A stretch of 64,000 bases of DNA. It comes from Verrucomicrobiota bacterium. GTDB lineage: Bacteria > Verrucomicrobiota > Verrucomicrobiia > Chthoniobacterales > Terrimicrobiaceae. Position numbers and translations under genes: made by a program. Of the stretch, positions 7,942-11,485 are shown one piece after another. The stretch is taken from positions 62,001 to 126,000 of the forward strand of contig JAFKMU010000038.1 of the NCBI GenBank assembly GCA_017305195.1. Direction: 5' to 3'. Numbering within the stretch: position 1 is the stretch's first letter; every line of letters starts with the position of its first letter. The notes beneath the pieces are model-generated. The model saw nothing but the letters and a program-made list of their open reading frames with translations, was not told the DNA's origin and made no database searches.

Positions 7942-9609
7942 ATGTCCGCAACGCTCGCCTCCCTGCGCATTCGCAATCTCGCGCTCGTCGAGGATCTCAC
8001 CTGGGAACCTTCACCGGGCTTCATCGCCATCACGGGCGAGACCGGCGCGGGAAAATCCGTCATCCTCGGCGCGCTCACCCTGCTCCTGGGGGATCGGGCG
8101 GACAAGGGGGTGATTCGCTCCGGGGCGGACTCGGCCACGGTCGAGGCGGTCTTTGAAAACGCCACCGACCCGCGCCTCGCCGCCGCGCTGGAGGACCACG
8201 GCGCGGAACCCGTCGAGGAAGGCCGCCTGATCGTGAAGCGTACGGTGCCCGCCGAGGGCGCGGGGAAGCAATTCGTCAATGGCTCGCCCTGCACGCTCGC
8301 GCTCCTGCGCGCGCTGGGCGACCTGCTTGTCGACCTGCACGGGCCGCACGACCACCAGAGCCTTTTCTCGCGCGACCAGCAGACGCGGCTGCTCGACAGC
8401 TTCGCCGGGAGCACGGCGCTGCGGGAGGAATTCACTCTCGCCCGCCGCCAACTCCTCAAGCTCCGGGAGGAAAAGGACGCCATTCTCCAGGGCGAGCAAG
8501 CCCTCGCCCGCGAGATCGACCTGCTTTCGCACCAAGTCGCCGAGATCGACCAGGCGCAGCTCGCCCCCGGCGAGGAGGAGACGCTGCTCTCGCGCCAGAA
8601 GGCGGCGGCGAATTCCCAGCGCATCGGCGAAATCTGCACCCAGCTCACGGCGGGCGTGAACGAATCGGACGACTCCCTCACCTCGCGGCTCGGCGAGCTT
8701 TCGCGCCTCGCGCGGGAGCTTTCGCGTCTCGACCCCGGCTCGGAGGAGATCGCGCGCTCGTGCGACGAGGTCTTTACAGCGGCGGATTCCCTCGCCCGCG
8801 CGATTACGACGTACTCCGCCTCGCTGGAGGACGGTCCGGCCAATCTCGACGAAATCGAGGCGCGGCTCGACGTGCTCCAGACGCTGAAGCGCAAGTACGG
8901 CCACACCGTCGAGGCGGTGCTGGACTTTGCCGCGCAGGCGGCGACCCGGCTGGAGGAACTCACGGGCCGCGCGGAACGCCGCGATTCGCTCGACGCCGAC
9001 ATCGCCGCCGCCGAGCGCGCCATGCTCGACCTCGGCCACAAGCTCACGACCAAGCGCACCGCCAGCGCCAAGAAGCTCGGCGACAAGGTGAAGACGGGGC
9101 TGAAGGACCTCGGATTTGCCAAGGCGGAATTCTCCATCGCGCTGGAAACGCTCGCCGACCCTGGAGCGCACGGCTGCGAGCAGGCGGAGTTTCAATTCTC
9201 CCCCAACCCCGGCGAGCCCGCTCGTCCGCTCCGCGCCATCGCCTCCAGCGGCGAAATTTCCCGCGTGATGCTCGCGCTCAAGGGCGCATTAGCGGATCAA
9301 GACGACGTGCCGGTGCTGGTCTTTGACGAGATCGACGCCAACGTGGGCGGAGAGATCGCCGCCAAGGTGGGCCTGAAGATGAAGGAACTCGGCGCCGCCC
9401 GCCAGGTCCTCTGCATCACCCACCTCCCGCAGGTCGCGGCCCGCGCGGCCGAGCACTTCATCGTCACCAAGGAAGTCGAAAGCGGCCGCACCCGCACCCT
9501 CCTCGATGAGGCCACCGGAGCCAAGCGCGAGCAGGAGCTGGCGCGCATGCTCGGCGGGCAGTCGGATTCCGCCCGGGCGCATGCCAAGGCGCTGCTGGCG
9601 GAGGGGTGA
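7942..9609 (+). CDS. recN: DNA repair protein RecN
   Basis: A 555-aa SMC-like ATPase of double-strand break repair. Walker A GETGAGKS lies near residue 30, the RecN-typical DLHGPHDHQSLF follows near residue 130, a long heptad-like coiled-coil arm occupies the centre, and the ABC signature SSGEISRVMLALK and Walker B VLVFDEIDANVGG (about residue 457) are intact, followed by CITHLPQVAA. All expected motifs are present and the length is normal. ATG at 7942 places the first strand LRIRNLALVEDL correctly at the N-terminus. It stands divergent to the MBL operon and is not obviously linked to the following AT-rich cassette. Confidence 0.96.
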   Translation: MSATLASLRIRNLALVEDLTWEPSPGFIAITGETGAGKSVILGALTLLLGDRADKGVIRSGADSATVEAVFENATDPRLAAALEDHGAEPVEEGRLIVKRTVPAEGAGKQFVNGSPCTLALLRALGDLLVDLHGPHDHQSLFSRDQQTRLLDSFAGSTALREEFTLARRQLLKLREEKDAILQGEQALAREIDLLSHQVAEIDQAQLAPGEEETLLSRQKAAANSQRIGEICTQLTAGVNESDDSLTSRLGELSRLARELSRLDPGSEEIARSCDEVFTAADSLARAITTYSASLEDGPANLDEIEARLDVLQTLKRKYGHTVEAVLDFAAQAATRLEELTGRAERRDSLDADIAAAERAMLDLGHKLTTKRTASAKKLGDKVKTGLKDLGFAKAEFSIALETLADPGAHGCEQAEFQFSPNPGEPARPLRAIASSGEISRVMLALKGALADQDDVPVLVFDEIDANVGGEIAAKVGLKMKELGAARQVLCITHLPQVAARAAEHFIVTKEVESGRTRTLLDEATGAKREQELARMLGGQSDSARAHAKALLAEG

Positions 9610-9697
9610 GGAAATCTTGCGTGTCTTCGAAAGTTCGACCGATTACAATTCCCAGTAACTTCGCATAAAATCATTCCAAGTAATATTTGAACAAAAC

Positions 9698-10948
9698 ATG
9701 ATTAAAGAAATTCGTCTTAGCAACTGGAAGAGCTTTCGTGAAGCGACACTCTATTTTGATCCGCTTGCAATTCTAATCGGAACGAATGCTAGCGGAAAAT
9801 CCAACGCCATTGATGCACTTGATTTCCTATCAAGAATCGCTCGATCAAAAGATCTGGTTGAATGCCTCCAAGCAACCGAAAAAAGCGATTCATTCCGAGG
9901 AGGGATTGATTGGGTCGCACTTAAAGGTGAACCCGAATTTGCACTATCGGTCCGAGTTACCTCGGATGATTCAGATATCGATTACCGTTACGAAATAACC
10001 GTCAGCCCCGCATCTCGTCCGGTTATTACAGCCGAATCGCTTCATCGAATAAAGTGCGCCAGAAGACGAGAAACCTCGATCAAGCTTTTCTGGACAGAAA
10101 CTTGCGAAAAAAACGCGCCCGCAATTACAGCAAGACTTTACAACACAAAGAGAGGAACACCCAGGGAGATGCAAAGAGGCATCCCCGTATTAACCCAACT
10201 TCAATTTGCAAGTAGCTCAGTAAAATCCGAAGAAATAACTAATGGAATTAGATCAGTCTGGTCTGCATTAGGCCATTTATTTATCCTAAATCCAATTCCA
10301 TCACACATGCGCTCTTTCTCAACCAAAGCAGAAAAACTTGAACCAGACGCAAGCAATCTCGCCGGAGTTATCGCAGCCCTACCATCCGACCACAAGAAAG
10401 AAGTCGAATCAACCATTCTACGATACGTAAGAGATCTCCCAGAAAAAGACATTCAGAGTTTAAGTTCCGAATTATATGGCCCCTTTGAGTCTGACGCCAT
10501 GCTAGTATGCGGCGAAGGCTGGGAATCCGACGGCGAGCCGCTTAAAGTTGACTCTCGCGCCATGTCGGACGGAACCCTAAGATTCATCGCAATTACCGCC
10601 GCACTACTAACTCTCCCCGAACAAACGCAACTCGTAATCGAAGAGATCGACAACGGTTTACATCCTTCGCGTTCTCAACTCTTGCTAAAAATGATTCGAG
10701 AAATAGGAGCAAAACGTAAGATTGACGTCCTCGCATCAACCCATAATCCGGCCTTACTCAATGAACTTGGTCCCGAAATGGTTCCCTTTGTTGTCGTCGC
10801 ACACAGAGAAAAAGAATCCGGGCACAGCAGACTAACCCTTCTGGAGGACATAAAAGCACTTCCAAAGCTACTTTCAGAAGGCCGCATAGGAACAATTGCA
10901 ACAAGCGGGGCATTAGAAAAAACCCTTCAGAGAGAACTCAACAAATGA
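9698..10948 (+). CDS. AAA/ABC-type ATPase of a two-gene cassette (putative defence system)
   Basis: A 416-aa RecF/SMC-like ATPase. Visible motifs are the N-terminal strand IRLSNWKSF, Walker A GTNASGKS (residues 28-35), a signature-like MSDGTLRFIAI near residue 288, Walker B LVIEEIDNGLHPS near residue 312 and a switch His in STHNPALLN near residue 347. This is the AAA_21/AAA_15 layout of phage-defence ATPases that are paired with a separate nuclease. There is no long coiled coil or Toprim domain. The gene is much richer in A+T than recN upstream (one sampled 60-base line is about one-third GC), which suggests recent transfer. Its stop overlaps the next gene by four bases. Confidence 0.85.
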   Translation: MIKEIRLSNWKSFREATLYFDPLAILIGTNASGKSNAIDALDFLSRIARSKDLVECLQATEKSDSFRGGIDWVALKGEPEFALSVRVTSDDSDIDYRYEITVSPASRPVITAESLHRIKCARRRETSIKLFWTETCEKNAPAITARLYNTKRGTPREMQRGIPVLTQLQFASSSVKSEEITNGIRSVWSALGHLFILNPIPSHMRSFSTKAEKLEPDASNLAGVIAALPSDHKKEVESTILRYVRDLPEKDIQSLSSELYGPFESDAMLVCGEGWESDGEPLKVDSRAMSDGTLRFIAITAALLTLPEQTQLVIEEIDNGLHPSRSQLLLKMIREIGAKRKIDVLASTHNPALLNELGPEMVPFVVVAHREKESGHSRLTLLEDIKALPKLLSEGRIGTIATSGALEKTLQRELNK

Positions 10949-11460
10949 GCACCTCGAAGCAAGTTTTAATTATCGACACAAGCCTTCTCTGCGTATGGCT
11001 AAAAATCCCCGGAATGGAAACCTGCGGAGAAAGAGATAACGAATGGAATTATCAGCGAGTCCACCTAGAAATCCAAGCCGCAATTGACACCGGACACACA
11101 CTCGTCTTACCTTTAGCCACTATAATCGAAACTGGAAATCACATAGCCCACTCCTTAAATCAGCGACTACAACTCGCTCAAGCTCTCGGCGAAATAATGC
11201 GCAAGACAGCCGATGAAGAGAGTCCGTGGACAGCATTCCAGCATCAAACAGAGCTCTGGGCACCAGATCAGCTTCGTGAACTCGCAAACACATGGCCTCC
11301 CCTCGCGCAGTCGAAGCTAGCAATAGGCGACGCTACAATAAAGAAGGTCGCCGACTACTACTCTCAAATGAGTTGCACAGTTGAATTACTCACTGCGGAC
11401 CAGCAATTGAAAGCCTACCAACCCCCACCCCCGACACTAATTCCACGCCGAAGGAGATAA
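10945..11460 (+). CDS. PIN-like nuclease partner of the ATPase
   Basis: A 171-aa protein whose start codon overlaps the ATPase stop (ATGA, 10945-10948). Acidic residues fall where a PIN-fold nuclease needs them: Asp11 in LIIDTSLL at the end of strand 1, Glu62 in IIETGNH, Asp129 in AIGDATI and Asp152 in LLTADQQLKAY, with the last segment looking like the typical final PIN strand. PIN domains cleave single-stranded RNA with a metal ion. The usual small VapB-type antitoxin is absent; the ATPase takes its place. The AT-rich composition matches the ATPase gene. The PIN assignment rests on motif spacing only. Confidence 0.6.
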   Translation: MSTSKQVLIIDTSLLCVWLKIPGMETCGERDNEWNYQRVHLEIQAAIDTGHTLVLPLATIIETGNHIAHSLNQRLQLAQALGEIMRKTADEESPWTAFQHQTELWAPDQLRELANTWPPLAQSKLAIGDATIKKVADYYSQMSCTVELLTADQQLKAYQPPPPTLIPRRRR

Positions 11461-11485
11461 CTTTCCTATTAGAGGATTGATCATC

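Follow-up and report, generated by a model that had tools for sequence, protein, structure and literature searches.

Locus and the two encoded proteins

Between recN and a downstream DUF1801/YdeI-like gene, the window (the whole stretch of 64,000 nucleotides analysed here) carries a compact two-gene cassette. As the initial annotation had described, its two open reading frames, 9698-10948 and 10945-11460, share an ATGA that begins at 10945. The features of the locus are as follows.

9610..11485, no strand: whole segment from the recN stop to the YdeI-like ATG, compared with congeners G001 and G002
9698..10948, forward strand: gene A, AAA_21/SMC-head ATPase, PDC-M07A, 416 aa (Pfam, PADLOC, AlphaFold2 model)
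9779..9802, forward strand: Walker A GTNASGKS, residues 28-35; G28, N30, G33 and K34 invariant in aligned relatives
10562..10576, forward strand: ABC-signature-like loop MSDGT, residues 289-293; S290 and G292 invariant in aligned relatives
10628..10651, forward strand: Walker B and catalytic Glu, residues 311-318 (E315, E316, D318); E315 invariant, E316 and D318 at least 90%
10742..10744, forward strand: switch His349; H349 and N350 invariant in aligned relatives
10945..10948, forward strand: ATGA overlap of 4 bases, stop of A and start of B (from the sequence)
10945..11460, forward strand: gene B, predicted PIN-fold nuclease, PDC-M07B, 171 aa (PADLOC, AlphaFold2, VapC20 match)
10975..10977, forward strand: PIN acidic residue 1, Asp11; Asp in 69/69 sequences having the position
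11128..11151, forward strand: PIN acidic residue 2, Glu62, in the signature ETGNHIAH (62-69); conserved in every sequence having the Glu62 position
11329..11331, forward strand: PIN acidic residue 3, Asp129; 69/69
11398..11400, forward strand: PIN acidic residue 4, Asp152; 68/68

The cassette has a GC content of 46.7%, below the 63.8% of the window as a whole; when GC is read in sliding windows of cassette length, it falls to its minimum (46.1%) at 9600. The third codon positions follow the same pattern, with GC3 values of 0.39 for gene A and 0.49 for gene B versus 0.87 for recN, so that the lower GC relative to the flanking genes, read earlier from the letters, is confirmed. No terminal repeats that would serve as a transposition signature were found at the cassette, promoter and terminator scans returned hits at chance level only, and Rfam gave no match within the window.

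Gene A matches Pfam AAA_21 (2.2e-30), and the PADLOC-DB model PDC-M07A covers its residues 1-413 (8.7e-159). Its AlphaFold2 model (pLDDT 92.8, pTM 0.92) resembles the heads of Rad50, SMC and PtuA proteins with Z scores of 19-22, and the top Foldseek match is Septu PtuA (4.7e-14). Judged from its sequence, gene A retains all the catalytic motifs of an AAA_21/SMC-head ATPase; the Walker A, MSDGT, Walker B and switch His elements named in the initial annotation hold up, with K34, S290, G292, E315 and H349 invariant. The 416-aa model is globular and confident throughout, with short helices only and no long coiled coil between the ATPase lobes. Pfam detected no Toprim domain on the chain, which continues for no more than about 65 residues beyond the switch His.

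Gene B is covered by the PADLOC-DB model PDC-M07B over residues 6-161 (5.9e-48), whereas its Pfam match to PIN_4 (E 0.012) falls below the cutoff, so that Pfam alone would miss the PIN domain. The AlphaFold2 model (pLDDT 92.9, pTM 0.86) has VapC20 as its best structural match (Z 12.8, rmsd 2.5 Å over 126 residues), with numerous further VapC proteins next in rank. Since matches within 1 Z unit count as tied, this ranking leaves the closest PIN member undecided; VapC-type and other PIN RNases make up the great majority of the structural neighbours. On the basis of the predicted structure, a PIN fold can be assigned to gene B with confidence. The four acidic residues occupy canonical PIN positions in the AlphaFold2 model, namely the end of strand 6-10, helix 57-68, the start of helix 127-141 and a point just past strand 145-149. 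The PIN-like spacing of Asp11, Glu62, Asp129 and Asp152 proposed from the sequence thus agrees with both structure prediction and conservation.

That ETGNHIAH was fully invariant among the relatives collected first was discounted because the string itself had served as a search pattern; among relatives found by profile, E62, G64, H66 and I67 are kept and four of the eight positions (63, 65, 68 and 69) vary. The C-terminus of gene B is basic (IPRRRR, window positions 11440-11457), and an Arg-rich end is common to most relatives, where it may bind RNA or a partner.

The structural neighbours of the two proteins also bear on the type of nuclease. If gene B were a DNase, the pair might restrict incoming DNA, with gene A as the DNA sensor in the manner of Rad50/SMC heads, and DNA-bound Rad50 and SMC heads are indeed among the best structural neighbours of gene A. 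This scenario is nevertheless distinctly improbable, given the preponderance of RNases among the structural neighbours of gene B and the missing coiled coil of gene A.

Pairing, distribution and mobility

Peptide strings from B alone, used as the query in a first scan across genomes of bacteria and archaea, recovered 73 loci in Cyanobacteria, Chlorobi, Bacteroidota, Firmicutes, Proteobacteria, Chloroflexota and other groups. Pairing is near-constant: an ATPase gene lies upstream on the same strand in 72 of these 73 loci, and the sole locus without it (L029) holds a B copy missing its N-terminal part. In the 71 pairs for which spacing was measured, including the window's own copy, the two genes are separated by at most 20 bp in 62, and the commonest spacing is -4, the ATGA overlap (18/71). 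As the first scan relied on B peptide strings, the search was repeated with profiles as a check on bias. The B profile yielded four further copies among 384 genomes of the class, three adjoining an ATPase gene and one a frameshifted remnant without it, and the A profile gave three strong matches (E < 1e-100) on viral contigs, all with B downstream. The profile searches therefore agree with the first scan, and the conserved pairing anticipated for distant genomes is borne out. Every B copy observed without an ATPase gene is damaged by truncation or a frameshift (L029, L101), as would be expected of a B protein that serves no purpose, or does harm, in the absence of A. In addition, the two proteins co-diverge: pairwise identities of A and B correlate across 65 loci (r = 0.855; maximum of 2000 permutations, 0.126), a measure of joint inheritance and no proof of contact, since part of the correlation comes from linked genes descending together.

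Several loci depart from the standard layout. L074 was considered as a truly separated arrangement and rejected, as an IS66 transposase gene (L074:5200-7857) splits the ATPase gene from a PIN gene without its first residues. In L010, another widely spaced pair, about 0.66 kb of inserted DNA (L010:1266-1925) interrupts the ATPase gene. The Hormoscilla genome that contains L004 harbors a second PIN copy (G681 contig C2:1855669-1858758), which is split, apparently by an insertion. L102:1498-3353 encodes a PDC-M07A-like ATPase (2.8e-63) with no PIN gene downstream; its reading as an ATPase fused to a new effector was rejected, since the long frame simply stays open by virtue of the GC-rich DNA and the start of the ATPase lies within it. 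The ORF downstream of this ATPase, unmatched in Pfam and PADLOC, could encode another kind of effector.

The cassette is patchily distributed, occurring in 5 of the 384 genomes of the class and in one of three congeners. Gene B is absent from the two other congeners, G001 and G002, whose recN shows 97-98% identity. In G001, recN and the YdeI-like gene lie 48 bp apart with no cassette between them, and the corresponding site of G002 (L095:3912-6109) is occupied by an M50-protease/TPR gene, a VapBC pair and a truncated YdeI-like gene. The recN/YdeI site therefore seems to swap cargo. Only four plasmid records and none of the phage records contained gene B, which counts against the defence-module reading given below. 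The low GC, the patchy presence and the empty site in G001 all indicate that the cassette is a recent horizontal acquisition, in line with the acquired origin first proposed for it. Elsewhere, an A-B pair resides on a prophage (L123:3180-6510), adjoining an anti-repressor Ant gene.

These patterns weigh against a housekeeping pair for RNA processing or DNA repair with no link to defence. PIN and SMC-like proteins do also have housekeeping roles, and the defence role of the cassette has candidate status only. However, its rarity within the class, its absence from both congeners, its low GC, its broken copies and its carriage on a prophage make a housekeeping function highly improbable.

For the neighbourhood of the cassette, 100 proteins from 20 loci were compared with 100 control proteins encoded on the same contigs at a distance of about 36 kb or more. 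With the threshold set at E 1e-40, 69 PADLOC families were matched by the neighbours and 22 by the controls, the families being redundant. Among the matches listed, the neighbour families include type IIG, III and I restriction, BREX/Pgl components, DrmMI and HEC-01, and the control matches derive largely from one type III-D CRISPR locus and from kinases. Defence genes near the cassette thus appear to exceed the matched controls only modestly, which also tells against the defence-module reading.

Proposed mechanism and alternatives

The cassette is probably an acquired two-gene defence module in which the ATPase controls a PIN RNase that stops translation upon infection. This proposal rests on analogy with Septu, PARIS and AAA-neutralised toxins. 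Septu is reported to cleave tRNA-Tyr (PMC13096335) and AriB of PARIS to cleave tRNA (PMC12409363), and AAA proteins serve as the neutralising partners of RNase-like or Toprim toxins in the toxin-antitoxin pairs tested (PMC10440598). Gene A, as a clamp-type ATPase, would form ATP-dependent dimers or larger assemblies, bind the PIN protein and presumably keep it inactive. A cue, putatively derived from phage, would shift the nucleotide state of gene A, and this change would release or activate gene B as a metal-dependent endoribonuclease. The nuclease would then cut tRNA or rRNA as its likely targets, halting translation and aborting the infection. The preference for an RNase over a DNase, and the role of gene A as silencer or activator, are likewise suggested by analogy.

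An addiction pair offers a related explanation, in which gene B is a VapC-like toxin and gene A a large ATPase antitoxin, the two being maintained selfishly with phage defence as an incidental effect. The VapC-like fold of gene B, the VapBC pair at the same site in G002 and the antitoxin-first gene order with overlap are consistent with it, as are the AAA antitoxins described for AarT and Toprim toxins, with AarT:AAA giving no phage hits in E. coli (PMC10440598). However, the cassette has no VapB-type DNA-binding antitoxin and is rare on plasmids, and the intact SMC-head catalytic motifs of gene A suggest more than sequestration, so that selfish maintenance appears unlikely as the main role. 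The two explanations overlap, because addiction pairs can also abort infection.

Under the defence-module reading, a more specific and tentative proposal, to which we give somewhat less than even weight, is that the pair represents an ATPase-gated system of the Septu/PARIS class with a PIN RNase effector, which would be the first demonstrated, and that the motif E-x-G-[ND]-H-I around the second catalytic acid couples the nuclease to the ATPase. An anonymous catalogue entry is thereby turned into a mechanistic hypothesis, namely that the clamp ATPases of bacterial immune systems may be equipped with effectors of the HNH, Toprim or PIN type. With a conserved motif identified, this small and portable two-gene pair is convenient for studying how such ATPases sense infection.

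Catalogue status and comparison with known systems

PADLOC-DB 2.0 lists the pair as candidate defence system PDC-M07, with A and B side by side and both matched almost end to end. By these model matches, the cassette is the known computational candidate PDC-M07, real and no new system; the suggestion that it may be undescribed was rejected, as PADLOC has models for both genes. The PDC candidates stem from the guilt-by-embedding study of Payne et al. 2024 (bioRxiv 10.1101/2024.01.29.577857), according to PMC13092281, which cites it, and PMC12988326, which describes it. In the literature searched, PDC-M07 was found neither by name nor in experiments, and validation elsewhere, in subscription papers or preprints, is possible. 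DefensePredictor validated two PIN systems, the single-protein DS-3 and DS-5, in which the partner is a DUF5830 protein; a pairing with an ATPase is described there for neither of them.

In gene content the window pair is no different from PDC-M07, itself a computational candidate. HEC-01 contributes the next nearest PADLOC family to gene A through its ATPase (5.8e-38), but this match is far weaker than that of PDC-M07A. Gene B shares with VapBC toxins the PIN fold (Z up to 12.8) and the four acidic residues, whereas no small DNA-binding VapB adjoins it and its upstream partner is a 416-aa ATPase. Unlike SMC and Rad50 proteins, gene A has no long coiled coil between its lobes, and unlike OLD and Gabija GajA it has no C-terminal Toprim. 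The AAA-neutralised toxin-antitoxin pairs (NetFlax D29; AarT, AbiL-like) also combine an AAA protein with an RNase-like or Toprim toxin; however, the partners named for D29 are Toprim, RloB-like, HNH, HEPN and RNase-like, and PIN partners go with ImmA (PMC10440598).

The likeness to Septu and PARIS noted at the outset is upheld by the top Foldseek match to PtuA and by the PADLOC AriA models that match gene A. Septu likewise joins an SMC-head ATPase gene to a small nuclease gene, and the fold of gene A agrees with PtuA at a Z score of about 20, whereas their sequence similarity is weak (E 0.002; 23 bits against a cutoff of 500 for the NCBIfam PtuA model) and PtuB is an HNH nuclease. PARIS pairs an AAA_21/AAA_15 ATPase with a separate nuclease effector, the Toprim nuclease AriB, in the place that the predicted PIN nuclease takes here.
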